Part shown: positions 9,344 to 44,771 of the stretch, piece by piece | Layout of the letters: the number at the start of each line of letters is the position of its first letter | Numbering within the stretch: position 1 is the stretch's first letter | Source: Siphonodentalium dalli | Taxonomy: Eukaryota; Mollusca; Scaphopoda; Gadilida; Siphonodentaliidae | Reading direction: 5' to 3' | Length of the DNA: 64,000 bases | Assembly: GCA_032622095.1 (NCBI GenBank) | Contig: CP136062.1 | Span: 133,753,282 to 133,817,281, forward strand | Made by a program: the position numbers and the translations under genes | Notes under the pieces: generated by a model | Database searches by the model: none | What the model was told of the DNA's origin: nothing | What the model saw: only the letters and a program-made list of their open reading frames with translations

Positions 9344-12300
9344 ACCTCACACCAACACAATCAATACACAAATGTAATTGTGACAAAATGTTTTACAGTG
9401 CAGGTAACGACAAAATGATATCTACATTAAATAAATGTCAGCAACCGGACCTCATTGGATAACTGACATTGGTCCAGAGCTGCTTGCGGTATTATAAATC
9501 TGGCTTTGAATTCATGGAATAAATGAATCTGTTAACTAGGTATAATGCACAAAAGAAAAAGGCTCCTCAGAAGAATTGCTATTATCTTTTAATCCAATAT
9601 TCACGGAAAGCTTCAAAGGGATCAGTGGTCGGATCATCATTTGTATTCGTTAACTTTAGCTACATGTAAATGGATTCACGCAAGTTTCCTAGTAGAATCT
9701 TTGATAATGACTGTACAATGACTTGATACTCCCTTGGTGCAACTCTCGGCATTGTCCTTCGGTTGCAATCTCAAAAGCACTGATTAAGTCACTGCAACAA
9801 TACTTAATTGGTAGTCAAAACTCATCACTGATTGTAATTTTTCTTGGGGTTAATTGGTTGTTATAAATATGTTTTAAGCATGGCATCTGTTTTATCCACA
9901 GTATAAACTCCACACCACTTGTGATCTTTATTTCATGTATAAAACGGATACCATGCTTATAACATATACATTGTATTTAATGGAAATTATTTTGACCTCA
10001 TGCGTCAGTTTCAGTATAATAATCACAGTTATTACAAAGGTTTCAGAGCGATGATATTTCTGGATTTTCATTCCATACTCTCCAAGTGCAATTTTCACAG
10101 TACTCATAAGGTTAGCTGATTTCAAAATTTTAACTGGCACAAAGGGAAGAAACTCCAATTAACGGGGAAAAAAATAAGAAGCAAAACACTTTTTTCAGCA
10201 CTATATTGACAATTTATTTTTTAAATCTTCTGTGTAGGTATCTTTTGAAATATCTTTTTTACCAAATCATATATACATAATTTTGGGTTTCGAAACATAT
10301 GGGAGGCCATTTTCACATTTATTCCTGATTTGCACTTAAGCGCAAATAATTCTTGTTATTTGCGCTTAAGCGCAAATAAATCCAGATATTTGCGCTTAAG
10401 CGCAAATAATAGAAATTATTTGCGCTTAAGCGCAAATCATTTGCGCTTAAGCGCAATTCATTTGCGCTTAAGCGCAAATAAATATCAAGAATCCTTTAGG
10501 GAAACTATTTGCGCTTAAGCGCAAATCATTTGCGCTTAAGCGCAATTCATTTGCGCTTAAGCGCAAATAGATCTTCCTTTTTAGAAAAACCCCCTTCATA
10601 TCAATGGCTCAAGCCTTGCTACCATGTGATCATAAGGGGAGGACTTCCAGTGATGCTTTGCCAAATAAAAATGAATGGGAACAGTTCATTGTGCAACCAT
10701 GTCCTACTCCGAAGGCTACGAAAGACAGTTTTCACATTCAGGCTATCACCCCCATAAGATTTTTAGGAAGGTCTAAACCAATTAAGTTATCATTTTTCAT
10801 TAGGAATCCATTTTCCCTCCTTTTTTCATTTGATCTTGGGGCAGCTGGGTGTACATGTACATCATCTATAAGTATTACAATGCAAATATCATTTCTAAAT
10901 AATTATGGATGTTGATCTAACTATGACAACATTGAGCAGGATTTTGCGAAAAAAAATTAATTTATGATGGATGACAGGACTGTTCAGTCAGCAAATGAAA
11001 GATACTCATTAAAGTCTGAATTGGATCAGTGTATTTGGAGAGGATTAAACCTTCAATGGCTTCATCATTCTGTTCATTGAGGTGCAGTCTCCATAGGATA
11101 AGTTGAAGGCTTTGTTTGGTATTTAAGACATTTTTCTCCAATGAATCAAGAGTTGAATCAAGAACAGAAGATAATTCATTCACAGAATCAATTGCCGGAG
11201 GAAGAGGTTAGTATCAATTTAACCAATGATTGGATTTTAAATTAATTAGATCGATCGGTCTTATTAATATTAAAACCAATTGAATTGGTCTTTTCCAGAC
11301 TTGCATGTACGTTAACTGGAATAAGGGGAATCACTTTAAACTGTTCTATAATTAACCCAATTGTGTTGTAACATCATATAATACATAGATCTCTGTCAAT
11401 CTGTTAGGTTTCCAGATTATTTGCGCTTAAGCGCAAATAAGTTATTTGCGCTTAAGCGCAAATAATCTAATGGTTACCAAAGCTCTCAGTCTCCATTAGA
11501 TTATTTGCGCTTAAGCGCAAATAAATTATTTGCGCTTAAGCGCAAATAAAGCCTGGCATCTTCATACCATATAAAGTTTTCATTCAAAACCGATATGGTG
11601 CACAACTGCACATGGTAGTTCTGTCTTCAACCCCTGATTAACCCTTTCATGATGGGAGCTGCACTATTGCAGCATTAAAGATCCTATGCCCGTGAATTTT
11701 CTTATAGATGCAAGTTTCCCATAGGGAGCCTCGCATGTATTAAAGAATGCACTAGCTTACAAGGTGAATAATTTTAGGCCAGTCAGGGACGCCGGAGAAG
11801 GGGGCATGAGGGATGCAAGAAGGAAACATCATTTCTTGTACTTCTGCAACTTTATTAAGCACTTATCAACTATTGTCTCAATCAAATCAATTCACTAATA
11901 AATTCAGCCTAAAAACAAAAACCAAAAAAAAACAAGAATTGTCCTAGTAACATACTTGTATTTTCACATTAGTTCAAATCAGTCTTTTCATGTCATCTAG
12001 AATTGATACAGTGACATAGCTAAATGAATACTGGGCTACTTACTATTTGAACTCTTACCCAGCACCTATACCCCGCTCCCAAACCAAAGTAACCTAAAAT
12101 AACATGTATTCTTAAAACATTTATCTTTTTTTTTTCAGCCAAGACCTAGTGGTACTCATAATTCTGCACCTGTATCAACTACAGACAGACACGCTATTTC
12201 AAGGCTTGACAATGACATGATTATCAAAGTGGGACACTTTATTAATCTATTTTTAGAACAGACAATATCGTATAGCGATAGAGATCATTAGGGTGTTCCT

Positions 12301-15300
12301 GTAGCTATGCACAAAGTGTCAAATATCCCAGGTTGCTTGTTTGTATTGTGTTATTACATTGTTATAAGCGATAAAGAATCTAATTAACTTTTATTTGTGA
12401 CAAAATTACACAATAAAAATTCTGGTCTCTGTTAACAATAACCACTATTGTTCGTTCGCTAAACTGTCGCACGTTTTTAGACCCGAAAATATTTGAAATA
12501 TAATGAATATTAATCAATTTCCGGACAGGGGTCTTTGATTCATATCTAATATTTTATACCCCGGTAACTATATTATATAATATAACACATGTTTACAAAG
12601 AGATAGATCATCTTTAAGACTTCGTTCCTTCCACAAAAAACTAGAACAATTTAATGTCACTTTCAACATCTATGGTCATGATGTGAAAGGACACCTATAT
12701 TCAGGCAATGGCATTCGTTGATATTTACTAGTACCCCATGCTGTGTCCCGAGTCTTAGACTATAAAAATGTCCCATCTTGTTCTTCAGGGAACAATACAG
12801 GGGTAATTGGGTAATTTGAGTTAGAAACTGATTGATTATTCAATATTATGAAGAAGTATTATACAATAACTCATATATACCAGTATCTGGAGCCATAAAT
12901 TTTGTACAGTGAAGCCTCTTTAAATGAAAAATGACACAAGAATAAAGAGATAGTAATCTCTTTGACCAATTTATTTCATCACTTGCACCATTAGCATTAT
13001 GTGAGTGTCCTGGTAGGGACTATAATTATGTAGACTGTGAATGTTTGTAATACATCAATAGTTTCAAGCTACAAATATATCTTACTAGTATACTAAGTAC
13101 ACATATGATTAAGATATACAAAGTAAATTAAAGAATAAAATATATGCATACTGATCGGTCAGTCATTGGTCAATATGAGAATATGTAGCCAGGGATGAAT
13201 CGCCTCATCACAAGTATTTACAAACTAGTACTACAAGCACGATTTTGCACTGGGTGAAGGACAGAGTACAAATGCAGCAAAGCCCTGTTGAAATGCAATA
13301 GAATCACACATTGACGATTAATAACTTGTTAATAGGCTATTGAACAATGACTATTTATCTATTCAGGAAAGCTTGGCATATTCATATCGTAGGAACTAGA
13401 ATTTTTCACATTTTCCATTTTAGAGTTATCCTTCTTTGCTATCTGACAATCGTTTCTTTTTGCTTTCAAAAGAGTGCCAAATGACAGAGTATGCATTTTC
13501 ATTTTGTCTGAGTTATCACCCTTAGTTTGTAATTTTTTGCTGTTTGTCCACCTTGATAACTCTAACAAATATAAACCAACTTCAATAATTGTTGGTAATC
13601 ATGCCAGTTTTATTCAGTCATCACAGGCCAGATTAAGACATCTTTCAAATTAAGACACATAATCAAATGAATGAACTTCACAGGAAAGTCAATTTGGCAG
13701 GGGGATAGTCTGGGCGGTGCACTTGTTGGAAGGCATGGACGGCCTTGGTTGTAGGTTATAATTTTATAAACAAGTTTCCAAATTATGAAAATGTCCTCAA
13801 GAATATAGTAAAACAATATAATGATGGTATAAATGGGACATTATCAACAAAACACCCTTTGTGTGAGCTGAGAATTTGTCTATATACAGCACATCAAGAG
13901 TAAGCAAAAGGGTATTTTTTTGAGAGAGTGATTGACAGTGATCGACCCATTCAAAAAACGATATCTTGAGTGGCAAGGATCATAAGAAAGTGCTAATGCT
14001 ATACAGTTTGAACCAAAGTCCACTTTGTGGTGTTGAGTGTTTTGCTTTTGTACGATCTTTACATACTGTACTTTAACAGAATTTGGCTTTCTTTTACATA
14101 ACACTGCATACAAACTTGACAACATCATATTATTTACACAAAATTTATGATTGGTATAAAGAACAAAATCTGTCTATATTTTAATATTCTTTCTGTTTAA
14201 TGGATGTAACTATTTTAACAGCAATACCACTGTGAAGACACCCATGCCTTTAACTTTGCGAAACATAATGTTAATCCGTAAAATTTCAAAAGTCTTAAAA
14301 CTTAAAATTTTGGTACGTCACTTGAATGTATCACAGATACAATGGTAATATTTCAAATGTGTTGATAAACAAATATCACTGATACACACAATTACAGTAG
14401 TCCCTGCTGCCAACCAGCAGAATGAATTATAATTTATTGTTTATTTAATCTGAGAGACCAAGTGTATGATGATTGATGGGCCAATTCTATACCACCCAGA
14501 TGATGGATCATTGATGGACTTGATGGGGTACCTACCCAGGTGCTATGCCAACCTGGGGAATGTAGCATTCTAATAACATCACCGAAAACTTCAAAGAAAT
14601 CGACCATACCACTTCATAGAAAACATCATCTGAACTACGCCCAATTTTAAATATTTACATATTGATTCGGGCGGCAACTATCAGCAATAATCTAACACAA
14701 ATAATTTTGATAGTCATTGCATTTAATTAATATATATATATATATATAACCCGTCATCTGTTTGTGTCTATCTACATGTTTGTAATTCTGTCACGCTTTT
14801 GGCGCGTTTATAACTTTTCAGCAAATTTGGAACAAGGCCTACAGTTAATCATAGAAGACGACTTAACAACTTTCATGCCGATTGGTCAAAGAGAACCTGA
14901 GTTCAAACTTGGTCCCCCCAAATGCCGTATTTGCATTCAAGTAGACACTATTAATTTTGTTACAACGTTTGTCCAAATGACATCATGTGATGTACACAAA
15001 CCCACACTTGCATTGCTATTGTATTTTGACAAAATTTCCATGCGCTCAACCCATGGTTGGAAATGGGTGATATAATTTAATTTGTCAGTTCAGGTTGAGT
15101 GTGAATAAAAGTTGAAATGCATGTTGATTTTGTCATGGAAGTGCATGGGGTTTAGAGTGGAGACTCAAACTTTCTATGCCATCATTGAAAATGGGTGCTA
15201 AATGGTCTTTCCATTTGCCACTTCAGTGTGAATATAAGTAATGGATGTTGTCTTTGAAAGTTGTGCATTGAGTGTGGATTCGAAGGAGTATATATCTGAG

Positions 15301-18300
15301 TAATGGCAAATTTTTATGTATAAAATGTTGATACAATACCAAAATGGGCGGGAGGTGTGCAAATGGGCCGCAGTGCAGGGGCCTATGGTCTTATAGGCCT
15401 ATATATGCTGCTGAGTAAAATCTCCCAAAGGGAGCCTGTTCAAGATCATAATGCATGTGTGCAAAGGGCACAGATGGCCTGCAGGCCACACCTTCACTGA
15501 ATAAAGGCCCTGTTTCAGTTACAGTAGTACATATAGTAATAAAGTAATATATGTTGATTTTGTTGCATTTCATATGTGCATGCATATATGTGGGTGGTGA
15601 TATAGAAATACAGTTTTAGTGAACAAAAAGTGTTCCCGAGCCATAGGCTTATAGCCGCGGAATAAATGCTGCCAATGGAGTCTGTTTTCTGTTTACTTAC
15701 TTATAATTTGAAAGTCTGTTCAGTACCGTATGAAGTAATATTATATACCTTGCCGATGGCAAAATTACATACTCATTTAAGTTACTGCATATAGTCCCTA
15801 GTCATTGAGTGGCTTCAGTTCACGCTCCGCGTCAATATTATCTTTTACATGATCATGTGTTCCACGTGTTGCCCAATCCAATTTCTGTCAAATTAATTTG
15901 ATTTTCTATGTATTATTGATATTAGATCATTGTTATTACTGGGGATTTATTGAAATTGGTGTACAGTACCCCTTTAAGATTACTACGAGACTTATCATTT
16001 AATATTCAGAATGGAAATAATGATATATAAAAGAATATCTAGTTTTTTGAGTGCATACAGCATTTATGTCATGAGTGAGCGAGACAAATGTTTAGTTTGG
16101 TAAAATAAACATTTGTCTCATTTACGAATGACATAATTGTCATTATGCATTAATAAAACACTAGATATTCTCTTTATTATATGCATTACCAAAGAAATTC
16201 ACCATTTAGACGATAAATTTTCTCACAATCGCCTTCAATAGATGTATCAAAAGTCAACAGCTGATCACTGTCTGTTCACTTCACCATCCGCTGAATAGAT
16301 AATAGCAGGTTATATATAACCATTTTTATGTTTGAGACGATCTGGCGATCGGTTTCATGATTGCCTGCAGTCAGTTTTGGTGGAGACTGTACGTAATGTA
16401 ATTTATACTTTTGGTCACGTGAGCGGCCTTCCTTATCAGTCGCCATTTAGCAAACCAGTAAGATCTCTCTCTGGACGTGGGAAGGTTATTCAAAAGTTAT
16501 GTAGTTTAAAATATTATATTAGTAATTCATACACATCTCGGCATCGGTAATTGTTTCTTGACCCTCCCTCCCGCCCAGTATGGTTATTTTGTTAAGTTTT
16601 GTTATTCTCATGTGTTATGATGTTTTATTACATTTGTTACTCTTGTTTGACTTAATTGTATGGGGCCCTTTTTTGGTCCCCACCTTCACAATTTTATTAT
16701 TTCGGCTGATTAATGAAGATAATTAAACAGCCATTGAACGAGAAATTGTCTCATGTCTTGTGAACTAGCAAATCCCTCCTTGGGCTCAATATTATGTAAT
16801 CACAGAATATTTATTTAGCCATCTTCTCAGGGCATAAATAGACTTCTGTATTCGAGTTATTTCCCCCATAATTGGGTCGAATTTCAAATTCAATTTTTAA
16901 ATATAACTATAATAATAAGTTATTCTACTGATTCACAAGAATGTTAAAATATGCATGTACATTGTACATTGCTACACACAAGTGAATCGGTCTGGGGGGT
17001 ATTAAAATTTATTTAACCACAACTTGTTTTTAGATAAATTACTGTTTAGCATATAATAAATAAATTTACCATATGGTTTAGATTTTTAAACCATAAATGC
17101 TATTAATATACACCAGTGACTGCAACTGTTTTGATAGAGTTCTAATTTTGAGAAATTGATACATTGTTAGACAATATATTTGATTAAACTGCTTGACTAT
17201 ACTCATAGTTACTTTCTCTAGCAAAAATAATATATTTATAAATTAGAGATCTATTCCTAGACTTTGTATTTCATGGTGAGCTTTGGTGGCACCAGCCAGC
17301 AGTAGATCATGTCATTAATCTCTAACTGGCTATGCCTATAGAGATCATATTCCACAATTTTAAAACATGGGAACTTTGAAAACAATGAATTTATTGAATG
17401 AATAAAATTATTAATATATAATACCTGTTGCTATACCTATTTCACAGTAGGTGAAGGTCCCAGCTTGAAATTGTATGATTTAAGTGACTTTGGGGAGGCG
17501 ATTTTGCTTTGCGTCACTCACTGTAACGGAAATTCTCCTAGGTAATCAATTCAAAGTTTACTTCAATAACAGCTCACAAAAATCATGAAATCTCAAGCTG
17601 GAACCACTTCCTACTGTAAATTAGATTATTATTAATTAAGGAACAAGTATATTAACAAAGAAATATGGAATATGATCTCCTTGGTAGTATCCAGAGTAGA
17701 AATTCATGGCATGATCAACAGCCTGCAGCAGCTTAAATCACAAACCAAAATTATTTCTTCCCTGTTCCAACGCTAAGGCTGTGGGACAGCAAATGTAAAT
17801 ATTAGAGTATTTTATGATGGTCGTCCATCATTTCAAGTGGATAGTTGTTAGTCTGACAATGAATGACCATCATAAAGAATTTTGGGAAACAACATTATAA
17901 GATTTAATTATATATTGTTTGCCAGTAATAATCTATACCGGTATGTGACTTTTAATTGAGAATATCTCTTTATAAACACATTCAATTTGAATATTTGTTA
18001 AACAAGATGTTTCTAACAAGTTATAGTTACCAGATACTAATGAATGATGACGATTTATGAAATGGATGATATAGTTTATTTCTATCTATATGATATAAAT
18101 TTCAAGTTTGCTTTAAAGATTGGAAACTTGGAATTTCTATCATCCTCTAAAAGATACATAGAAACGCATGGGACATTAAATGATGGTAATAGTACTATAA
18201 TACTGTCATTTTATTTAATATTTTAAGTATCTATGTTGAACAACTCCTTGCTGTGTGATCAGAAAATAAATTTAATAATTATTGATATTTATATATGAAA

Positions 18301-21300
18301 AGAATTGGTTAGCTTGATATGGACATAAACTGTAGAAAGAATTCATGTGATAAACTGTAGAAAGAATTCATGTGACTTAATTTTTGGTTGGCATTAACAC
18401 TTTTAAGTGATTCGATATAATATAATCTTGCCCAAGTTTAATAAGTTATTTTGATTTATTTCATATTCAAATACATGTAGGCAGAAAAAAAACACAATTT
18501 GTCCTGAATAAAGTAGTAAATATTTTCATTTGTGCATAGTTGTGTTCTCTGAAATGGCACAGTCGATGTGGTTGGAAATTTCAACAAAATTAGTTGATTG
18601 CTACATTCTACCAGTGGAACTGTTGTTGGGTGCTAACTTCTGAGTTTAAGTCACTGAAATAATTAAATCAACAATTAAGATGTCACTAAAAATGTGAATC
18701 TAGAAGTTACTTATTCAAGCCACAGCTATGTAAATTTCCAACTAAACAATCAACTTCATTGGGGACTTTCTAATATTGACTTGCACACCAAATATTTATC
18801 TTTTGGATCTATAATGTTTGAGGTTCTTTGGAAAATTTCATTGCTCTGAGCTTCAGAAACTGGGATGGTGACTCCAGAAACATGGACAGCATCTGGTTCA
18901 GCTCCATCTTGAAGTGTACTATCTTGATTAGTACTGGTGAAATCTTGAACTCTCCTTCTAATGTCCTCAGCAATTGAGTTATTATCAATTCTACCAATTG
19001 TGCCTTGAATCCAAAGCTGTTCTGGAGACATATTTTGTTCTGAAGATAACTTATGAGAATTCCACGCCTGCATGAAAGCTTGTAAATCTGCATTTATACA
19101 ATCAATATAAGCATAATGTAAACAAAATTTATGTACATCATCACCAGGATCCAGAACATTCTCATCTTCAAAAGAATAAAACAATAAATAATACTTCTCA
19201 ACAACTTCCTTGTACACATCTCTCCACATTCTCTCAATCCTCTGATTATGAACGCTCTCTCCCGTCAGATGACTATTATTCATACTTTCGTCATTCAATA
19301 TATTCATTAAAACAGCAACCTGGACATTCTCGCCTCCATAATCAGACCTCACTCTCGATGGCACTCCATATGCAAGCACAGCTTGAAGAAATGATTCCAA
19401 AACAGTTGACGATGAGTTATCAGTTGAACATTTCATATATGTAATCATCCTAGTTTTCCCATCCACACAACCATGCGTTGCCAAGCCCCATCTGAAATAA
19501 AATGATGGGATGGTAATAATAATGGGGTATATCCACATACTTATTATGCCCCCAACCCGCTGAAGGAGGATTCGGGGGAATAAATTGGAGACGTCTGTCC
19601 ATCGAGCCGTCTGTCCATAACAAACATTTCTCAACACAGCTCAAGTATTTGATAGTCCAATTTGGATGTCCTTTGGTATGCCAGTAGACCAGCATTTTGA
19701 AAAGGATCTCCACATAGTGCAATTTTTTTCCAGCATTATGGCCCTTTGCTGGACAATGCGTCCATAACAAACATTCTGTGGATGTCTTTATTATTGGATT
19801 TCATTGTTCTTTGGCATAGCACATGTTGGGGAAAGGATATCCACGTACATACTATGGGTTTCGTGCATTAATTTTTGCCAGTTATGACCCTTGTTTGACT
19901 TGGAAATTTGTGTCTGAAAGAATATATCAGCTTGAAAAGCTGGGTGTTGATTATCGGATTTTGTTGTCCTTTGTCACGGTGATAGCACATGTTGGTGGAA
20001 AGGATACCCAGATACTATGGTTTTTATCCATTAATTTTTACCAGAATTACAGCTCTTGTTCTACTTGCCCTAAGTAATGGACTCCTTAAGCTTTCCGATG
20101 AATGGCAACAAGCCATATTTCCGACTAAATCCTGAAAAGTTAACCATAATTCTGCTGTGGTTAAGGAGTCCATTACTTAGAGCATTAATGCATGGGTCAA
20201 ATGGCTCAGTGATAATGTCCTATATGAAGTCTAATAGTCGATACTTATCAAGATGGAAGTTTTATGATGCCATTATAAATTGATTGATGGTATCTGTAAT
20301 CAAATGACAGATATTTAATGCCAATTTGCACAATAAGGAGTGGTATGGTAACTCCAAATTTGAACACTGGTAAAATATGGTAGGGGGAAGAATATTGATA
20401 AAAACTTTAAACATGAAAAATTCTGTGGAAGTTAGTTCTGGGTAAAACCATATATCATATAGTGGAATGAACCAGATAATAAGGATTTTAATTATTATGA
20501 GTATTAACTAGTATGCAGATAGTATGGGACATTGCAGTTTACTTACCGAACAAGCTTCATGTGACCATCCATGTGCCACAAGCTATTTGGATGGGGTACA
20601 AAGTAGCGTCGTCTGACAACTGTTCTGGACCAGCGAGATGCTACCGATGCAGGATCTATTCTCCTGAGTGATTGCCTTACTCTTTCTCTTTGAACATTGA
20701 AACCACTTGTCATTAAATATGCCATCATCATCTGTAATTGAAGAGGAATTATTTCATATTTCTCCCTTAATCATTTATATACTAAAATCTCATTGATGAG
20801 TAGTTAACGACAATTGGCTGTTTTGTTAAACTTATTATCTGAACATTTTCCAGCAATGAATATGAATCCTTCTGTTCTTCTATTTATAACCTGAACATAC
20901 TTAAAAATGAACAATAGACCATTCCACTGACTTTTAATACTGAGTGGGAGCATCAACTGAGTATAGAAGGGGTTGAAATTAAGGCTGATGCTAGTGGCAC
21001 AATAAGGCGACAATGTCCACAAATTTGAAAAGCCAAGCAGAGACCCATGCATTATCATAATAATATCTAAGTATTTTGTATGTATAATCACTGCAATAAT
21101 ACACTTAAAAACACTTCGCTCTTTCATTAAAAAACTGCAAAAATTTAATTTGTAATACTATAGTAAAAAAAAACAACAAAAGCTCTCTGGATGTACAATG
21201 TAGTGACTTGAAGCAAATCAATACCACTCCACAGAAAACATCGTCTGAACTATGCTCACTCAACTAACAAAAACGATTTTGCCATCGACAGTCACTGCAA

Positions 21301-24300
21301 TTAATTAATGTATAAGAATGATGGATTGTGTTGTCAATTTGGATATAATATTTGTAAAAATAACGACCGGTACTTTGAGCATGATTATTCTCCATTTCTA
21401 TTTGATCACCCTATCGGATTGTTTCACATCAGTTTAATATCGTTAGTCTTACCTTTACTCCAGCATTTGGATGCTTCTCATGTAAAGTTGTAACAATCTG
21501 GTCCAAATCTGTGTTTGAAATATTTGAATATTTGTCTCTCTGCTTTCCTCCTTTGGCATAAAGGGTGTTGTAAACATGACTTCGGCTACAGCCCAAAACC
21601 TTTATACAGAAGAGAAAAAGGTTTTATGAATAAATACAATGGGGACCATAAAGACCGGAACTATTTAAAATTATGATCTATGTCCTTGACAATATTAAAT
21701 AACAGAGTTGCTACAAAAAACTAATAAATCATTTACTCCTGCATGTATTTTCTCCATTAAATTTGAAAGTATAGGTTTAAACATTATTCTTAATTTGTGA
21801 GGGATGTTCAGAGTATAATCACTGACAACAATATTGTTGAAATTGAGCATGAAATACTTATGTAATCTGCCCACTAGAAATATGTTGTAATTTTGTTGTC
21901 TGACATTTTCAGGTGAGGAATCACATTCCACACAAGTGGAATTACATTCCACACAAAATTTTAGACCAGCCTAAACCAACTTGCATTTGCAGGGTATTTT
22001 GGGTCAATGGAAATGATATGGTCCCCTTAAATTTCCATGGTGATCCATTCACAGATGTGAGCATCTTAGATGCCATCTCCTGCATTTGTGGCCTTTTCCT
22101 ATAACTCAGAACTTCTCTGAAAAAGACAATTTATTTAATATTGAATTTATTCATCAGACTCATGGATTGTTGTTTTTAAGGTTTTGTCTCAACTCTGTTT
22201 ATAGTTCCAATCGCCCAATACATGTAGTTTTTATGGTGAACAGAAAATTGGTCCCCCATTTTTCAATTTGTCAATTTTCTGTTTCCCTCAAATTTCATAT
22301 TATCCTTAATACAAAATCTATATTTGAACCAAATTAAAAAAAAAAAAAAATGGTATTGAGCACATATGATTAGATCAATGTACCAGTAGTTATTTTAATA
22401 TCTTTTGAAATTGAATTTTTTAGTTTTCACTTGTAACTTAAAGGTACTCAATCCGATAAAACTCCTCTCAATTACTATTTCAATGACTTCGGGGGTCAAA
22501 AATATTTGATTTGAGTCGAGGAAGCCACCCATCAAAGCTCAGATTTTTTAGATATCGATTTTAGAAATCTATTATTTTTCATTATCGGGAATACTTTCTG
22601 GCCCAGATCACAGTCAAAATTGCGTTATTATTACCTCTTGATTTTAGAGTTATCCATCCTTGTCTGGTTGAATAGTGTTTTGGTGTATACATCTCGAGCA
22701 TATTACGAAGTTGAAGGCAATTATTAGTACTCATCTCGAGAAAATAACAAATTTCAAAAATCAATATCTAATAACTCTGAGCTTTGTTTGATGGGTTCCT
22801 CGACTCGAATCAAATATTTTTTACCCCCAAAGCCAAAGAAATAGTAATATAGGACCCTCTGATCGGATTGTTGTTGTTGGAATCTGTTGAGATGGGGACC
22901 CTCTGATCGGATTGAGTACCTTTATATTACCTTTGAAATTTGGGATGCTGTGAAGTTCTTCTCCTGCAGAAACTTTATCTGTGCGATTGACACACCAATC
23001 TTTGGTCTCCCTAAAGTATAAAATGGTTACACAAACGAGAGGCCGATCACGATCGGCAGATGTTTAACCCATCCCTTGGCGATAGTAAATTGTTATAATC
23101 AGAATCATAATCTTTTAATGTTGAATTATAGAGTATACTGTTATGATCTAAAGTAGTATATGGCAAATGTACATAATAACCAGTAATAACACAAATTATT
23201 GGAATGTATGAGTCAATATAGAAGGGTTAAATAACATCTAAACTCTAGAGCCTGTCACCACTATCATAGTGTACGCAGTTCTATTCATGTTGTTGCAAAT
23301 TGCCATGTGAGATGCCAAAATAATATAATTATTTATTTAATGGAAAAGGTTAAAAGACATGGAATGGGTAAAAGGGGTTAAATCACCTATCTCTGCCCTG
23401 TTTGATACAATGTAGTCCCATCATCCAAGGACTTAGAGAGCTCCATTGGTCTAGTTAAATAAATTCACATTAAGTTGTGGTTAATAAGATAGCTAAATCA
23501 ATTTATCCAATAATTCACCAATTTGTGTCTCTTATACAGAGGGAACATATGAGGGCTATAAATAACTCTCAATAAACCATGTCTTTTTATCTCTCTCACA
23601 GAGAAGCTGTGAGGCTGAGGTATTCATTAATTGTAAGTTACTTGGGTTATAATTGGATAATTCTTAGTTGATAAAGGGCCATATCTCTGGTATAACAAAT
23701 TGGATCTAACCCATATTCAAACTCGTTCTGTATTTTGAGTTGAGAAACTCATATACCAAATTTGGCTCCTATCAGATGAAAAATGGTTGCTTTATCGAAG
23801 TATGTGTGAACTATATGTCAAAGGACCATAACTCCATTAAAAAACATCCGATCAAACCCATATTCGAACTCAATCAGTCAGTATGTTGGTCTGAGAACCT
23901 CATATACCATATTTGGTTACAATCAGATAAAAAATGTTTGAGTTATGGCAGAATTCATGAATTCTAAGTAAAAAAAAGGGCCATAACTCTGTAAAAAAAA
24001 CTCGGATCAAACCCATATTCGAACTCGGTCTGTATTTTGGGCCGAGAAACTCACATACCAAATTTGGTTCCGATCAGATAAAAAATGTTTGAGTTATGGC
24101 AGAATGCGTGAATTCTAAGTCGAAAAAGTTCCATAACTCTGTAAAAAAAAGTCGGATCAAACCCATATTCGAACTCGATCTGTATTTTGGGCTGAAAACC
24201 CCATATACAAAATTTGGTTTTAATCAGGTAGAAAATGTTTGAGTTATCGCATTACACGTAAAGTGTCTACGGACGGACAGACGGACGGACAGACGGACGG

Positions 24301-27300
24301 ACGGACGAACGACGAGTGGTCAATCCGGACAACGACACTATGTTTACCATACATGGTATGGGTAAACATAAAAATCAATAGTCATAAAATACTATGAAAT
24401 CAGCTCTGCACAGGAGATCGGTGATAATACACATAGGTTGGAAATTTTCCAACTGGTGACCATTTGAGTCCACAATTTTGACCAAATGTAGTAAAACATT
24501 GTTTTCTTAAACTCGTTAGCAGTTTTTATTGGGCCACGGGGAAGAGACTAGGACACATCGGAGCGGCCAGTGTAGGAAAATTTTGAAATCTGAACAAGAA
24601 AATCACAAAATCCTAGCATCTAGACTGGCCTCAAGCCTTGCAAGAGTTGGAAATTTCAAACCTGACACCCGACTTAGGTTGGAAAATTTCTAACTGATGA
24701 CAATTCCAGTGACAATTTTTACCAAATGTAGGATAATATTGTTTTCTTAAATTAACTAGCAGTTTTTGACTGGCCATGAGCTTTCCCAGTGTTAGAAATT
24801 TACAACCTGACACCCCTCCCCCCCACCAAGGTTGGAAAATTTTCGATGGCCATTTCAGTCCAATATTACCAAAAGAAGGAAAACAAGCAAATATTGGTCC
24901 AAAAACAATAAATTGTTTGAAAATCAAACTACAAGAAAATTTTCAATAAATTGTTGGTGTGATATTTCCAACCAATGTTGTGTCCATTATGAAATTTCCA
25001 ACTGTTGAATATTTTGACCAAATTGAGACACCTCCCAAAACCCCCTCCCTGTCGCCATGGCTCTGCAAATAATCTCATACTTGACCTTTATAAGGGATAT
25101 GAGTATAAAACTGTGTCAGTACTGTGTTTCTACTTGTCAGAACCCTGAATATCTATTTAGCTCAATACTATTTATGTAAGTATCTTCTCTATGAAAAAAT
25201 AAATGGAAATAAATAACTGTGATATACTGAAATGCTGTGCTACACGTATTTGCAGGTAATTTCAAAAGTTCTTTGCCTCAAAGCCTAAAATAATGAATAA
25301 AACAATTTGAATAAATACAAATGGGTGCATGGATACCCAAAAATATGCAGTAACAAAACTTATAAACAAGAGGTTGCACCTGCAGTGCTGGCATACCAAC
25401 CACAGTGGTAAAATCAAGCCAAAAAAGTATGGTTGAGATATCTGACGGAAAAAGAAAACAATATTTTCATACTGATCAAAGATAAATAACTCAAGAAAAG
25501 AAAACAATGAATGAAGGATGGGATAGGATAATTTATTTCCAATATACACATATACATACATATATAAACATAGAAACAACAAGATAAACAATCACAAATT
25601 GTGATATATTGAGAGGGGGCAGCTTAGTCTAATATAAACTGTCACCCCTGTTTAATGAGTGTAATAAATATTAGATGGCTATAAGATGAATGAATTGATT
25701 GAACAATTAATTGATTGCCACCATAGTAGTGAACATCCATACCAAATTTCATTGATATCCGTCAACCAGTGGTTGAGATATCTGCTTGGACAGACATTTC
25801 CAGATAAACAAAGATGAATACTGTGTATTACATGTAACTCTAGAACAAAAAACCCGAAAAAAAAGATTGAACACTCCATTGAATGGCCTCATAGTAATGC
25901 CATCCATTATACCATTCAAAATTTCATTCAGATCTGACAACCAATGTTTGAGATATCTGCCCGGACAGATCGACAGAAGTCTGCCGATATCTTTGGTCTT
26001 TCCTTGTTGTTTTTGACAGGTTTGACCACTTAAGACTGCCCATGAATAATGGGTTTTAGGTAGTAGTTCGAAATTAGATGGGTTAAACTTTCTTTTGTCT
26101 TCGGCTCCTTCCATGACAACGTGCACCTTAGGCTCAAATGTGCACCCAGACGGACGGCCGGACGAACAGATAGAAAAACGGACAGACATCGTCCAGATAC
26201 CCCATCTTTCAACCAATTTTTGTTCTCAATTTTATTCAAGAAAATAGAGTTCCCTCTCTTACACCAGTGAGCACTGTATGTTGAAGACCAATCGTCTATT
26301 TTTGAACAATCAGTCTAATAAAGATTGACGACCTGTGTATGTAAGACTTTATTTGCGCTTAAGCGCAAATACTTATTTCTATTTGTGCTTAAGCGCAAAT
26401 AAAGCCTTAGGCCTACATACAAATGAAATAAGCTATTTGCGCTTAAGCGCAAATACCTATTTCCTTTCTATTTGCGCTTAAGCGCAAATAAAGTATTTCC
26501 TTTCTATTTGCGCTTAAGCGCAAATAAAGCCTAACACACAGAGATTGACAGCTTTGGTAAGCATGAAAATTGATAAATTATAAAACAGATGTATGATATG
26601 ATTTTATTAAAAGGTACTCAATCCTGTGGTATAAAATTTCCCAAAACATGTTAATTATCAACATGTTGTTGAATGAAATATGGCCATATTATCACTTGAT
26701 TATCACAAAATTTGGCCATAGTACCACTTTATTTTAGAGTTATCCATCTTCATCTGCAATTTTGTCCGAGACCGTCACCTTGACAAATATTTTCCAGGCC
26801 ACAAATAAGTAGGTATCTCGAGAAATAAAAAATTTCAAAAATTAATATTTGATCACTCTATTTTTTGCCCCCGAAGTCAAAGAAATAGTATATTTGGAGC
26901 TTTAATTCAGATTATGCATCTCTAATTTAGTTATATTTTTTTTTAGAAAATAAATTTAATTATACTGTATACAGCCTTATCAGGAAATATGTTTAATTTG
27001 TGGGAACACATGTTACTTATCTGAGGTGTTTGGTGCTTTGTATCAATCTAAAAGATACCATTATTCTTATTAAGAACAATTTAGTAGCTTATACAGCCTG
27101 CTAAATATCACATGCTTGATATATGTCACAAATTAATTCTGATTTCTTTTGAAAGACCCTGAATAATTATTTACTGATATTATTTAATAAACATTTACAA
27201 ATCTGCAAACAAACAAAATTTCAATATTCAAGAAATTTAGAGTTCGATCCCTCTCTTTAATACATAAGTGAGCACTGTGCCAGGAAGACTGATCGGTCTC

Positions 27301-30300
27301 ATAAAGATTTATCGATAGTTAACCCAGACATGTGTGTGTAAGAAATTATTTGCGCTTAAGCGCAAATAATTTATTTGCGCTTAAGCGCAAATAACCTATT
27401 TGCGCTTAAGCGCAAATAAAGCCTTACATACGTGTGTGTAAGGCTTTATTTGCGCTTAAGCGCAAATAATTTATTTGCGCTTAAGCGCAAATAACCTATT
27501 TGCGCTTAAGCGCAAATAAAGCCTTACATACGTGTGTGTAAGGCTTTATTTGCGCTTAAGCGCAAATAATTTATTTGCGCTTAAGCGCAAATAACCTATT
27601 TGCGCTTAAGCGCAAATAAAGCCTTACGTACACAGATTGATATGCAAATTTCTAAATTTTAAAGCAGAGATGTATGATATGTTTCAAGGGGGGGGGGGGG
27701 GGTGCAGTTAAATTATTTATATTACCCCCCCCCCCCCCCAATGAGGAGATCCTCAAGCAGCATCCCTGGGTGTGTAGATGTGTTCAATCAACATTCTTGT
27801 TTTATTTTAAAACAATCCAACAACAAACAAGAGGTATCCGGTGAGTAAAATATTACTTTTCTGTCCTAAATTTGAAAAAGGATTCAAATAAATTGATACT
27901 AACCTCTCCCTCTGGGAACTGATTCCGTTAAAGAACTAACTTCTGTTCTTGATTCATGTCTTGGTTCAGCTTCATTTGAAAAAAATGTCTTAACTAGTTG
28001 TAATGAGGCATTCAACTCATCGTATCGAGATTGCCTCAATGAAGGTTTAATCCTCTCCAAATTGAGAATACATTGATCCAATTCAGATTTTAATGAGTCT
28101 CTTTCATTTGCTGACAGAACAGTCCTGTTTCCTCCATCATAAATTAAAAACCGTTCGCAATTCCTGACAATCCTGCTCATAGTGGTCAGAATTTGATTAA
28201 TTTGAGCCGAATCCATAATTATTTAGAATTAGAAATGAAATTCACATTCCTGGTATTGTACACCCAGCTGCCACAATGAAAATGAAATAAGGAGGGAAAA
28301 TGGATTCCTAATGAAAACAATAATTTGGACTAGCCCTTCATAAAAATAATATGGGGGTGATAGCCTCAACTTATATTTGCGCTTAAGCGCAAATGATTTG
28401 CGCTTAAGCGCAATTCATTTGCGCTTAAGCGCAAATATTGTATTTGCGCTTAAGCGCAAATGATTTGCGCTTAAGCGCAAATGAATTGCGCTTAAGCGCA
28501 AATGAATTGCGCTTAAGTGCAATTGGGGAATAAATGTGAAAACGGCCTCCCATAGAAACAAGCCATATCTGTTTAATGAAGTCTGGCTGCTCAATTACAC
28601 ACTTACGTTTTTGTTAGGGTCACCGTGGATGGCCATTGGATGTGGTTACCCCAGTGCCAGATATAGAGAATCTCACTGAAGCTCTGAGGACTGGACCTTA
28701 TGGACGATGTGTTTACGAAAGTGATAATGATGTCGTCTCAAATCAGGTATTTGACCAAATATTGACTACCATTATGTAGAATTTGGATTTTCAAATTTCA
28801 GAAGTTTTAGTATACTTTTAGTACTCACAATCAAGTGAGATTCCATCCACAGGTGCAAATTACCAGTAATCTATATCATGTTCACATGTCCGTCTCATAA
28901 CCTTCATAGCAAAGTATTGTTTATGGGAAAAGCAACCATAACCATCTTAGTAAAATTGACTGCTATTCAGTTCTATTTTGACTAATCATTGTTGGAATTT
29001 ATATATACAAAAATAATACCTCCCTTCCTGACTGATTTTGAATAAAAAAAACTGTCTGTGAAACAAAATAAACGTTTTTGCAGGCTTAGCGTCTTCTTTC
29101 TTTAAGAGGGAAATAATATTAAGGGCCTTTAACTGGACATTAACCCTTTCTATACTAAATGGATTCTCCCATACAGTTATAAAATTATGTAATGGAATGG
29201 TCTATTATTCATTTGAAGGGATGTTCTCATAATAAAAGAAGATGACAGGCAGACAAAAAAATAATACAAGTACAGATGGATTCATATTCATTGGTGCGAA
29301 ATGTTCAAATAATAAGTTCAATAAAACCTTGAACTTATTATCTGATCATTCCTAAGGGAACTACTCATCAATGAGTATTTAGTGTAGAAAGGTTACATTT
29401 GGGAATAACCCATCTGTTCGTCTTTGATGGATGTCGGTTTACATAAATTCCTACCTGCAGAAATTTGGTCTCAACTAATTGTTACGATATTAACTCTTTC
29501 TATACTAAATACGCATTGATGAGTAGTTCCATAACAAATTATCATAGGCCATTTATTGAACTTATTTTCTGAAACTTTCCCACCAATGAATAGGAATTCT
29601 TCTGCACTTGTATTAGCTGTTTAACTGTTTGTCGTCTGCTTATAATTCCTGAGCATCCTTTCTGATGAATAATAGACCATTCCAATGTAGTCTTTTGTAA
29701 CTGATGAGAAAATCCATTTGCTGAAGAAAGGGTTAAGTGATGGCTATTATATATTTATACAAATCTGATATATATAAATAAGGGCTATACTATTGTCACG
29801 GCATTAAATAAAATAGCATAAATTAAATTTAAATGTTTGTTATTGTAATCATGTGATGTGGAACTCTTTAACATGAGAGATCTATTAAAATCAGCCCCAC
29901 TTGTACAATGGGCAATGTTGGGCGATGAGAACCTTTTCAGATTCTTTCATCATTTTATTTTGAACAGGTAGTCAACTTCCAATTCGCTGGTGGAAAAACT
30001 GCTTCACTGACAATGATAGCATTCACAGAACGAGTTTGCTCAAGACAAGTCAAAGTGTATGGCACAATGGTAAGAATGCTTAAACTATTTCATGATTTGT
30101 ACCCTTCAGTAATGCCCTAAATAATCGACTCCTTAACCACAGCAGAATTATGGGTAACTTTCCAGGATTTAGTCGGAAATATGGCTTGCTGCCGTTCATC
30201 GGAAAGCTCTCACAGAACTTTCTGATGAATGGTAACAAGCCATATTTCTGACTAAATCCTGAAAAGTTACCCATACTTCTGCTGAGGTTAAGGAGTCGAT

Positions 30301-33300
30301 TATTTAGGGCATCACTGTGTATGTAGAATTTGGGTTTTCAAATTGCAAAGGTCTTAGTAGTACAGTATTAGTACAAAGTTGTCAGTGAGAGGACCATGCT
30401 TTGATATCAACATCATTAGTATGGAATATAATCAGTGGGGGAAACAAGCAATTTTTGACATGCTTGATCAGTAGTAATCATAGACCCAGTTATCTCATTC
30501 AAGGAACAACTTGACTATTGCATCTTTGACAGGAATTTCCAGCATGACATTTACTAATACCAGAACTAACAGCCCAAATATGTCTTATTCTTTGTTTATT
30601 TGATATTTGATTTTTGCTTCAGGGTGAATTAGAGATCTCTGATGGCTATAGTGTGAAGGTCACAGATTTCAGAGATGGAGATATTGGTTAGTATTGCCAC
30701 CAATGAGGTCTGGGAGAGGTTGCTAGAGGGTCTCAGCTGCACCAGCCCCCCACCCCTCACACTTGAATCAGACAAAAAATTCCAAATCTGGGAAATTTGC
30801 ATCCCTGCAGCTTGGGATGGAATCTTCCGCCTGGTATCTCAAGCTCTCCAACTGTTGTAAATGTTCACCCTTTCGGCCCCCTATGGTTGGAATGGCCATT
30901 TCATAAAAAAAAATTGACATAAAGTACTGGCAAGTAGGGAAATATTCAAATTTTGGTCTAAAAACAACAGATCTCCCACTAAATTCTGGTTAGGATATCA
31001 AACTACAAGAACAATTTCAATGTATCTTGGTCTGAAATATCAAACTGATTTTGTGTCAGGCATGAACATTCTAGCTGTTGAATATTTTGTCCAAAGAGGT
31101 GCACATGGTGTCAACACTATTATCCCCCCCCCCCCCCCCACACACACCCACACCAGCCATGAATGGGGTGGACTGCCAAAAGAGCTGTGTAAACCATTTA
31201 TCAATGCTTTTGAAATTCTTAATATTAGTTGGCGTATACTGTTATATAAATAACACAAATATTTGCTATAACTTTATAACAATGGAAGCTTGAATGGACA
31301 CAGCTGTCAATCATGTAATTATTAGCAGATATTTTATAGAATTCAGCGACTGAGCCTGTTGCTTGTGACAATAAATATTCTTTGTTCCATCTAATTTTGA
31401 TATCTGCTCATATTTTCAGTGTAAAATTGTCTTTATTGTCCCCGACATTCTGTTGGAGGACTATAGTATTGACCCTCATCCATGCGTGTGCATCCGTCCG
31501 TCCATCCATCAATTATGTCCGTCCATCCATTCGTCAACAATTCTTTAAACATCTTCTTCTCCAGAATCATAACACTATTTGATGGGCTGTTCCCTAGGTG
31601 ACTCACATTAAGAAATTGTTCAAATGAGGTCACTGGGTCAAATAGTTGCAAAGCCAGGGCCATAACTCTTTTCCTCCATAGTAATTCTTAAAACAACTTA
31701 TTTTCAAGCACCATTTTTTTTTTTAAATGTGAATAATTTTTTATTTTTTTTATTAAATTTTCAAAAACTATCGCCTTTATAACATCCACTGGGGTACTCC
31801 GAATCACTGCACCAAATTTGGTTGAAATCAGTCTAGGGTCTGGGAGAAAAATAAGGAACAGACAGATTATCCTTGCCATTTGAAGAGTCAAATACCCATA
31901 CATGTATTATCTTGTTATTAGCTCAACTTACTTTGTAAGTTTGAGCTATTGCCATGGGTTGGCGTCTGTCGTCCGTGTGTCTGTGTGTCCGTCAACAATT
32001 TCCTTTGGCGCGGGCTACAGGTCGTACCTTTGGTCTGATCTTTATGAAATTTGTCATGAATGTTGACATTGACATGTAGATGGGAATGAGTCATTTTGGG
32101 GTCATTCGGCCAAAAAACATGGCTGCTGGTGGCCATCTTTGATTTCAAAATTAAATCCATTGGCGCGGTCTACAGGTAGTACTGTTCGTCTGATCATCAT
32201 GAAATTTGTCATGGATGTTAATATTGACATGTAGATGGGAACGAGTCATTTTGGGGTCGTTCTGTCAAAAACATGGCCGCCAGCAGCCATTTTGGATTTT
32301 ACTCTTTGCATGACTAAATCCTTTGGCGTGGGCTACAGGTCGTCGTAGCTTTGGTCGGATCTTCATAAAATTTGTCATGGATGTTAACAATGACATGTAG
32401 ATGGGAACGAGTCATTATGGGGTCATTTGGCCAAAACACATGGCCGCTGGCGGCCATCTTGGATTTAAAAATTCAATTCATTGGCGTGGGCTACAGGTCG
32501 TACTGTTCTTCTGATCATCATGAAACTTGTCATGGATGTTAATATTGACATGTAGATGGGAACGAGTGATTTTGGGGTCGTTCGGCCAAAAAAACATGGC
32601 CGCCAGCAGCCATCTTGGATTTTACTCTTTACATGACTAAATCCTTTGGCGCGGGCTACAGGTCGTAGCTTTGGTCAGAACTTCATGAAATTTGTCATGG
32701 ATGTTAACAATGACATGTAGATTGGAACGAGTCATCTTGGGGTCGTTCGGCCAAAAAACATGGCCGCCAGCAGCCATCTTGGATTTTACTCTTTGCATGA
32801 CTAAATCCTTTGGCGCGGGCTACAGGTCGTAGCTTTAGTCGGATCTTCATGAAATTTGTCATGGATGTTAACAATGACATGTAGACGGGAACGAGTCCTT
32901 TTGAGGTTATTCAGCCAAAAAACATGGCCGCTGGAGGCCATCTTGGATTTCAAAATTAAATCCATTGGTGCGGGTTACAGGTCGTACTATTCGACGGATA
33001 ATCATGAAATTTGTCATGGATGTTAATATTGAAATGTAGATGGGAAACGAGTCATTTTGGGGTCGTTCGGCCAAAAAACATGGCCACCAGCAGCCATCTT
33101 GGATTTTACTCTTTACATGACTAAATCCTTTGGCGCGGGCTGCAGGTCGTAGCTTTAATCGGATCTTCATGAAATTTGTCATGGATGTTAACAATGACAT
33201 GTAGATGGGAACGAGTCATTTTGAGGTCATTCAGCCAAAAAACATGGCCGCCAGCAGCCATCTTGGATTTTACTCTTTGCATGACTAAATCCTTTGGCAC

Positions 33301-36300: not shown

Positions 36301-39300
36301 TGCTTCAGTGAGCTTGACCATTGGTGGATAGATATGGCAACATTATCAACCACATTCCAAGATCAGGGTAGCGGTAAGATATTTAGTGACCACCAGCTGT
36401 AGCTTTCTACTGCACATGCCAAGCTGGCTGTAGACGATGCCAGCATACAGCTTTCTACTGCGCATGTCTAGCCGGCTACAGCTGGCTACAGCCTGCGTGC
36501 TCAAATATGTCCATTACTTGAATTATTAGTCATAGTTTTTTAATCTTGGCACAATTATTGACGATCCTAGGAACCTGTGCACCGGCAATTATGAGATCCA
36601 TCCAAGCTTTTTATATGCCTGTTTGAAATAATGGTCGTATTATGTAATCAGCCTGTCCCACCATCCTTCTGAATGTCTGTCCGCCATCAGTTAACACTTT
36701 TGGTTTTCGACTGATAACTCCAGTTTGGATTATTTGAGTTGTGATTTGTATTTCTCAGCCAAAAATACAGACCAAGTTAAAATTTGGGTTCCGTCCAATT
36801 ATTATACAGCCTTTTTAAAAATGGGACATATTACATTTCGCTTCTGTCGGTCCATCCGTTCATAATTCGTTTCTTGGCGATAACTTTACTTCTACTGAAT
36901 TAATGGAATGAAATGTGATATGTATGTTCACTATTTCAAATACTTTTCAGTTCTAACAATACAATACAATACAATACAAAAATTAATTTGTATAGCGCTC
37001 AATATTATGAGTACATATTCAACGGCGCTTTACATTACATCGAGCTCATTGCCTAATCAGCATAATACATGTACATGCACATATATCTAGGAATTAAATG
37101 CTACATCAAAGAGATATGTTTTGAGGCCGGTCTTAAACATATTTAAATCAGTGAATATTTTCAAGTGAGGTGGAATGCTATTCCATAGATGTGGACCTGC
37201 AAATGAAAATGCCCTATCGCCAAACGTTTTCTGTTTGTTGAAAGGAGTGTACAAAAGCATACTGCTATCAGATCGTAATCCATATGTACACACATTTCTG
37301 TCTTTGATCATATCCTGTATATACAATGGTGACATGTTATTACGAGATTTGAATACAAGCAAAATAATTTTGAACATGATTCGATACTCCACTGGCAGCC
37401 AGTGTAATTGCTTGAGAACTGGAGTTATATGTTCATGCCGAGGAGTGTATGATACAACTCGCGCCGCAGCATTTAGCACTTTTTGCAGGCGATCACACTG
37501 GTAATCCGGTAGTCCATACAGTAAAGAATTACAGTAATCTAAGTGTGACGTGACAAAAGCATGGACCAATGTCTTAGTTGAGTCTACATCGAGGTATTGT
37601 CTAATTTGTCGGATTTTGTATAAACCTCTGAACGCCTTCTTACACATATTAGAGATATGGTTATCCATTGTCATGTTTGTGTCAAAATACGATCCCAGGT
37701 TGCGAACAGTGTCCTTTGTTGGTATGTCGGCGTCTCCCACATGAATTGAACTGATGTTGACTTTCTGAAGTTGTTGTCGAGAACCAATGATTATGAATTC
37801 AGTCTTATCGTCATTTATCATGAGTCGGTTGGTAATCATCCACGCTCTAATGTCCACAATACAGTTCTCCACAATTTGACGTGCTTTAGTTTCGCCTCTC
37901 TCTGTCGGTCGAAATGAAAAGTAGATTTGGGTATCATCTGCATAGCCGTGAACATCGGGGAGGTGACTTTCAACAACAGAGAATAATTTTGAAATGTAGA
38001 ATAAGAACAGCACGGGTCCAAGACAACTTCCTTGTGGAACTCCGCACTCGATGGGGAAATTTGTAGACTTTGAGCCATTGATGGATATTTGCTGTGATCG
38101 GTTCGTGAGGTAAGATTTCAACCAGATAGCTGCAGTGCCGCGAACACCAAAGTCAGATTGTAGAGTATCTAGAAGAATATCATGGCGGACGGTGTCGAAA
38201 GCAGCACTCAAATCTAGTAGCACAAGCAGAGTGACCTTTCTTGTTTCCATGCTGCAGAGAATATCATTTTGGACTTTAAGCAGCGCGGTTTCAGTTGAAT
38301 GGTGTTGACGGAAAGCAGAAGTGTTTATTGGAAGAGGTGCATGTTGTTCGCTGTGCCGAACATAGCTCTATCAGGTGGAAGAAGTTTATTTACAGACATT
38401 GACTCTGTCATGGTCCGTCTTTGTATTGAAAATGGTCAATTTGAGTTAAAAATTTGGTAAAATTAAGTGTTTTGTGTGTGCAAACCAAGGGGCATAACGC
38501 AGTAATTTTTTATGAAGAAGCTAAAGTACAGACATTTGATTACACCTACAATATCAAATAGAGCATACTTGATGGTACCCAGGTCAAAGATAATGGTTCA
38601 ACATAGATTTGAAGTACAGTGTTGACCAAAATTGCTGGAAATTATGTGTTGCTGCCTTAAAGGGACTTTCAACCTCGATAAATTAGTAAAAATCTACTGA
38701 AATGTGTTATCTTTCCTATCTTCGTGTGTGAGTTACACAGTTTGGTATTGATAAGTTTTGAGCTCTGAATTACTACCATTTGCTAGTACAGTAATGCCCA
38801 AAGTAATTGACCACTTAACCACAGCAGAATTATGGGTAATTTTTCAGGATTTAGTCGGAAATATGGCTTGTTGCCATTCATTGGAAAGCTCTCGCCGAGA
38901 GCTTTCCGACTAAATCCTGAAAAATTACCCATAATTCTGCTGTGGTTAAGTGGTCAATTACTTTGGGCATTACTATACAGTATTTGTCTGAAGCTATAAA
39001 TACTATGGATTTCAGCTTGGGGAGTGGGGAGGTGATGTGATTATATATGCATCAGTTACTCCCTACGATTTGGGTGAAGTTTTGTGTTATTGTGTGTTAC
39101 ATAAAAATTACCTTCATTTAACAAAACGTGTTTCCACGCAATCATTTCCACAATGAAATTCCTTGGATACCTGGTACGAAAAGCCATATTGGTTATTATT
39201 TGGTTGTGTTTCCGAATGACCGAGTAATGTCAAAACAAATACTGGAGAGGGGGGGACAATTGGCTACTGATGTATCACGAACAGCGTATGTTCACCAGCA

Positions 39301-44420: not shown

Positions 44421-44771
44421 TCTGCCAACTCGATACAGCCTGCGCAGCAGGCTCAGGGTCTGTTAGTGGTCATGCCTCCTCTATTTGTAGTCGCAGCTTC
44501 CACAACCTTCGCAGAGACGGTCAACAATGGATTTTCCTCTGCCAACTCGGTACAGTCTGCGCTGCAGGCTCGGAGTCTGTTGGTGGTAATGCCTCCTCTA
44601 TTTGTAGTCGCGGCTTCCACAACCTTCGCAGAGACAGGAAACAATGAATTTTCATCTGTCCACTCGATACAGCCTGCGCTGCCGGCTCGGAATCTGTTGG
44701 TGGTCATGCCTCCTCTATTTGTAGTCGTGGCTTCCACAACCTTCTCAGAGATGGGCAACAATGAATTTTCA
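44421..44771. repeat. 117-bp tandem repeat, three units plus a diverged fourth
   Basis: Units start at 44421, 44538 and 44655 (period exactly 117, a multiple of three). Contain GTCATGCCTCCTCTATTTGT and 'gcttccacaaccttc'. A diverged unit precedes at about 44290-44340. Open frames on both strands repeat accordingly (VMPPLFVVAASTTFAET). Confidence 0.85.

Follow-up and report, generated by a model that had tools for sequence, protein, structure and literature searches.

The IS3EU transposons are sparsely described: published accounts list 17 autonomous families in Repbase in May 2022, with TA..TA termini, usually 6-bp target-site duplications and no HHCC domain (PMC10045372), and fungal members with termini of the form TAYGG..CCRTA (PMC12730594). 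Styx of Zymoseptoria is a mobile element of 7,927 bp with an IS3EU-type transposase, four open reading frames and 6-bp duplications, and its degenerate copies are mobile as well (PMC10853768). Here we analyse an element of the scaphopod Siphonodentalium dalli that occupies positions 10298-28554 of a 64,000-nucleotide stretch of contig CP136062.1; this whole stretch is referred to as the window. As far as those accounts go, the element shares with the IS3EU/GingerRoot superfamily its TA..TA ends (here TATGG..CCATA, which fits the fungal pattern), a 6-bp duplication, an rve-type DDE transposase that lacks the HHCC zinc domain, and a first catalytic Asp (here residue 235) that lies within the published range of 100-300 residues from the N-terminus. 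Membership of this superfamily, which a preliminary description of the window had proposed, is supported by the fit of termini, duplication and transposase type to the published traits; among the matches listed (120 of 579), no protein homologue is named IS3EU.

The family differs from the IS3EU/GingerRoot descriptions in having large copies of 16.3-30.9 kb with one recognisable five-exon gene, terminal arms of ~1.25 kb that include exon 1, and arrays of a perfect palindrome. Styx, which shares the transposase type and the 6-bp duplications, is set apart by its length, its four reading frames and its fungal host. Relative to the descriptions seen, the size with a single gene, the position of exon 1 in an arm, the palindrome arrays and the nesting of copies are new, although catalogued families may share them; no account of palindrome arrays or self-insertion in IS3EU was found in the parts of the literature searched, which is no proof of absence.

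Several other systems were compared with the element. Ginger1 and Ginger2 are not matched, as they have TG..CA termini, shorter duplications and, in Ginger1, an HHCC domain. Retroviral integrase is a viral component with an HHCC domain, whereas the transposase studied here has no Pfam match to this zinc-type domain before its core at E<=1. The transposases IstA of IS21 and TnsB of Tn7-like and CRISPR-associated (CAST) transposons are bacterial and work with ATPase partners, and no partner gene was seen in the scanned window copy. IS481EU is described with duplications of ~4, 15 or 25 bp (PMC10045372) and is likewise not matched, as the duplications here are of 6 bp.

Boundaries and genomic copies

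We consider it highly probable that the element is an autonomous IS3EU/GingerRoot transposon that moves by cut-and-paste, probably rather than by copying. In the mechanism we propose, the single recognisable gene, with its first exon in the right arm, would give a 486-residue protein that combines a helix-turn-helix-like part with a DD35E core of retroviral-integrase type. The helix-turn-helix part would bind the palindrome clusters near both ends, and the bound protein would pair the two ends, cut at TAT/ATA and insert the element at target positions staggered by 6 bp. The element and its main parts are as follows:

10298..28554, unstranded: whole element, 18,257 bp
10292..10297, unstranded: left target-site duplication, GAAACA
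28555..28560, unstranded: right target-site duplication, GAAACA
10298..11550, plus strand: left terminal inverted repeat, ~1.25 kb, patchy, inner limit approximate
27340..28554, minus strand: right terminal inverted repeat, inner limit approximate
23034..24374, unstranded: foreign nested repeat, 1.34 kb, with a 151-bp tandem array

Our analysis confirmed that the element is real and correctly bounded, and supports its place in a known superfamily. Its termini are TATGGGAGGCC...GGCCTCCCATA (TAT..ATA), and the bases beyond the two flanking copies of GAAACA differ (gtttc and agcca), which makes the boundaries exact. The outermost 54 bp of the two arms are 89% complementary, and arm-to-arm homology continues patchily for ~1.25 kb, reaching ~74% over one 0.5-kb stretch. 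The preliminary description, which had reported an 18,257-bp DNA transposon with inverted TATGGGAGGCC ends and long inverted repeats, was therefore correct on these points; its view that the element is apparently complete is qualified by the nested 1.34-kb repeat and by a left arm shorter than in most close copies.

We searched 2,226,750,531 bases of the host genome in 9 contigs, and all genome counts given here are lower bounds. For a 28-base end pattern in which one base was left free, there are 159 exact matches, 100 of them with listed positions, against 0 for the reversed control. We examined 21 end pairs, which comprise large elements and small derivatives, including two derivatives from the palindrome groups described below, and found exact 6-bp duplications in 19, all 19 different. 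Because the ends recur in this way, a chance origin is excluded; copies with the same ends and other duplications, which the preliminary description had named as a check, are thus present. The 19 include a copy at C3:116794587, which pairs with an end at 116810871 (TTAATC on both sides), and the C3 end at 116813708, which pairs with 116764189 (AACATG). Fourteen large intact-ended copies with duplications measure 16,285-30,935 bp; two copies that enclose another copy, of 49,520 and 79,657 bp, are counted outside this range, and three small derivatives, of 810, 975 and 1,054 bp, lack the transposase core while retaining the palindromes and both ends. The catalytic frame has at least 16 stop-free matches at 98-100% identity and four further near-full-length ones (L017-L020), three of which contain a stop.

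Over the left interior, copies of subfamily A are 98-100% identical to the window copy, and those of subfamily B are mostly 95-98% identical, with other blocks missing. Taken from the left end up to window position 11560, the left arm is 1,262 bp long in the window copy and 1,239 bp in C3:116794587, and the same span is 2,578-3,284 bp in six other subfamily-A copies; loss in the window copy and gain elsewhere are both possible.

Empty sites, available for sister insertions, break at the boundary given above, exactly to the base in two cases and approximately in a third. Neither outcome that would have refuted the preliminary description, ends confined to this locus or an empty site with another breakpoint, was observed. 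The copy at C9:57593313 lies in a satellite; its flanks, once joined, align along their full 380 bases with six nearby monomers (93.7-99.7%), the best match being gapless with GATCTG present once. The copy at C9:100253430 lies in an older family copy, and two other copies carry the uninterrupted site with GAATCT once. For C2:183567724, which lies in a tandem repeat, the matches that span the site are partial and gapped. With its numerous intact large copies, precise ends, sequence-level empty sites, miniatures and clear candidate binding site, the family offers a direct way to study with purified components how ends are recognised and targets are chosen.

At C2:102345619-102452442, family ends recur in the same orientation at spacings of ~4.7 kb and 102 kb, perhaps through tandem segmental duplication of a segment that carries a derivative.

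The transposase gene

Exons were placed by matching homologues to the window and then by splice sites. In the resulting predicted splice model, the transposase has 486 residues from five exons, and every intron is GT...AG:

27904..28216, minus strand: exon 1, inside the right terminal inverted repeat
22931..23010, minus strand: exon 2, start of the helix-turn-helix-like region
21453..21599, minus strand: exon 3
20547..20731, minus strand: exon 4, first catalytic Asp, D235
18756..19491, minus strand: exon 5, catalytic core with D292 and E328, C-terminus, ends at the stop

Homologue matching was clear for exons 3 and 4 and weak for exons 1 and 2 (best E 0.002 and 0.004). The left arm holds a diverged mirror of the exon-1 region at ~10,740-11,221 (~74% identical). 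Splicing in vivo is predicted, as is the position of the promoter. An unbroken 486-residue DD35E transposase had been announced in the preliminary description: the length stands, as does the catalytic type (D235, D292 and E328, with 35 residues separating the last two), but the protein is assembled from five spliced exons and not read from one open frame, and the 294-residue open frame at 18756-19640 (minus strand) is the last exon extended back into its intron.

The protein matches the Pfam integrase core rva_4 at residues 223-415 (E=2.7e-84), and a match to rve falls just below its cut-off (E=4.7e-7). Across 18 aligned homologues from fish, other animals or unnamed sources, which are 32-44% identical, the three catalytic residues are invariant. 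In a sequence search against solved structures, the two hits fell in the helix-turn-helix part; the core had no match and was assigned by fold instead. The predicted structure of a homologue (P0018, mean pLDDT confidence score 84.1) resembles retroviral integrases (Z up to 17.3), CAST TnsB (17.0) and IstA (16.4), mostly over residues 211-440. More distant transposase relatives occur in the same genome, with 41-69% identity for the better ones (e.g. L025, C6:47372037-47372786); judged from sequence, they are other families of the superfamily.

Polintons (Mavericks) are self-synthesizing elements of 15-20 kb with 6-bp duplications, an integrase-like core and AG..CT termini, which carry genes for protein-primed DNA polymerase B, ATPase, protease and capsid. 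As similar size, duplication and core are common to both, the element might be a decayed Polinton reduced to its integrase; however, we regard this as very unlikely. Six-frame Pfam scans of the window copy (11560-18701 and 19600-27903, E<=0.01) returned the transposase only, with no other passenger gene and none for polymerase, ATPase, protease or capsid, and the ends are TAT..ATA rather than AG..CT. Furthermore, the left interior is largely common to subfamilies A and B, and the structure is therefore not the private decay of a single copy. Frames without a known domain exist in the element, for example one of 158 residues at 25749-26225 (minus strand).

The element has been active recently, as the preliminary description had suggested. 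Intron 4 of the window copy shows 1-5 differences in ~1,050 bases from six relatives and 7 from a seventh (0.1-0.7% across these seven closest copies), and 28 differences in 1,042 bases from the most distant of 19 copies; the element may still be active at present. All five exons were recovered in seven of seven copies (the window copy, five of subfamily A and one of subfamily B), each encoding 486 residues with no internal stop, and the six further copies differ by 2-7 residues. Of 20 copies, 17 have an open frame through exons 4-5, and all 20 keep the neighbouring splice sites. The ratio of nonsynonymous to synonymous change (pN/pS) of 0.34 indicates that the frame is under purifying constraint, as would be the case for an IS3EU transposase domesticated as a host gene; this reading is refuted by the multi-copy structure, with ~20 near-identical dispersed copies that have ends and duplications, and we give it practically no weight.

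Several observations weigh against an autonomous element whose own protein recognises its ends, and the results need to be interpreted with these in mind. The helix-turn-helix matches at residues 105-145 all lie below Pfam cut-offs (HTH_23, 19.9 bits against a cut-off of 24.6). Two of the end pairs are without matching duplications: C3:137755462 has GCATAA/GTTATA, and the pairing of C9:100229475 is uncertain, with both candidate partners mismatching. The exon-2 donor is GA, not GT, in two of the seven copies, C8:120077136 and C1:167958821; these cannot splice as modelled for this reason, and they probably moved with transposase supplied from elsewhere. In the window copy, the foreign repeat at 23034-24374 lies on the upstream side of the exon-2 acceptor, ~24 bp away, and the gene may splice badly because of it. 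This repeat occurs at 96-99% at no fewer than 27 other loci, is missing from six or more of the close sister copies, and also holds an ACGG microsatellite, tandem repeats in its interior and an end that resembles a hairpin; our guess is that it is a non-autonomous Helitron-type element.

The window copy may accordingly have been moved in trans, with an intact frame whose productive splicing is blocked by the repeat inserted beside the exon-2 acceptor. The absence of the repeat from the sister copies is in keeping with this, as is the loss of the exon-2 donor in two other young copies; on the other hand, the acceptor AG, the ~24 bp upstream of the acceptor and the frame are all intact, and insertion of the repeat may postdate the transposition. 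We take movement in trans to be a serious possibility, yet the less probable one.

Palindrome arrays and insertion into older copies

The perfect palindrome TTGCGCTTAAGCGCAA is present as 31 exact 16-mers in the element and is found nowhere else in the window. At up to three mismatches, the 18-mer TTTGCGCTTAAGCGCAAA has 34 sites, all within the element, and these form the following clusters:

10329..10567, unstranded: left outer palindrome cluster, 9 sites
11420..11546, unstranded: left inner palindrome cluster, 4 sites
26352..26524, unstranded: palindrome cluster in intron 1, 5 sites
27349..27616, unstranded: right inner palindrome cluster, 9 sites, with a 100-bp higher-order repeat
28376..28523, unstranded: right outer palindrome cluster, 7 sites

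Inside clusters, 22 of the 29 site-to-site steps are 21, 25 or 30 bp. Genome-wide, TTTGCGCTTAAGCGCAAA has 4,201 exact matches (control, 0). Fifty listed genome sites form 29 groups, and the three groups that we opened all contain palindromes together with one or more family ends; in two, both ends are present with duplications. The left outer array has a folding z of -17, which is expected of any palindrome array and was not used as evidence.

The simplest reading of these sites is that a dimer of the transposase would bind the palindrome. Alternatively, the clusters could be satellite-like DNA spread by gene conversion, with no binding role. They do form tandem arrays with periods of 21, 25, 30 and 100 bp, and mixing of arm types is seen at one locus (L058), where a left-type arm lies beside a right arm. 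However, the palindrome sequence is kept across variable spacers and in diverged small derivatives. Two diverged relatives keep an end, and the evidence from them is divided: one has six palindrome sites, and the other (L081) has just one decayed site.

Base changes among 18 left ends bear on the same question. We found changes at 7 of 524 palindrome CpGs and at 18 of 216 other CpGs, which puts the rate for the former at roughly one-sixth of that for the remaining left-arm CpGs, and at 9 of 1,719 other palindrome bases compared with 220 of 14,883 bases elsewhere (8e-6 and 6e-4 by Fisher's test, which are not true probabilities, as gaps were omitted and the copies are related). Taken together, we consider spread without a binding role unlikely, and binding by the transposase would remain the preferred account of the arrays.

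Three of the 18 large elements examined (C9:100253430, C3:137755462 and C3:116794587) sit inside an older family copy. These young subfamily-A copies occupy the left arms of three different older copies, and one of them, C3:137755462, is the copy without a duplication noted above. A fourth right end, C2:124814977, adjoins the left terminal repeat of another copy; only one side of this junction was seen, and rearrangement is possible. The distances to the left end of the outer copy in the four cases are 3,950, 2,757, 2,837 and 406 bp. If the family's target made up 2e-4 (0.02%) or 1.3e-3 (0.13%) of the genome, three self-insertions in 17 would have a chance of 5e-9 or 1.5e-6, respectively; these target sizes are guesses, the sample is small, and 17 was used although a recount gave 18. 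We also considered a hop between sister chromatids into the element's own sister copy, which is unlikely because the inner copies are more alike among themselves (99.3-99.8%) than inner and outer copies are (98.3%).

Tentatively, the arrays may do double duty: transposase on resident arrays would both synapse ends and mark landing sites, and the family would home into its own left arms. We put this forward as a possibility that is more doubtful than not. If true, a self-targeting family could limit where it inserts, form composites of 50-80 kb and recombine its arms in new ways, and it would provide a clean eukaryotic example of self-targeting by a DNA transposon.

The family copy at C2:124813478-124816883 (L058) is rearranged: its right arm is directly followed by the inverted left arm of another copy, with two termini 406 bp apart.

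Other repeats in the window

Outside the element, the window holds further repeats. Overlapping frames at 44769-48561 (minus strand) lie in a GC-rich stretch (~52%), and one of them has a weak RVT_1 match just below its cut-off (E=8e-7); from its resemblance to such elements, we take this to be probably a DIRS-like retroelement. A 387-residue reverse-transcriptase frame at 37087-38250 (minus strand; RVT_1, E=1.8e-21) is apparently part of a retroelement without long terminal repeats (non-LTR). A tandem array at 32001-33298 has 8 copies of ~164-bp units and resembles sequence that lies beyond the outer copy at another locus (L056).

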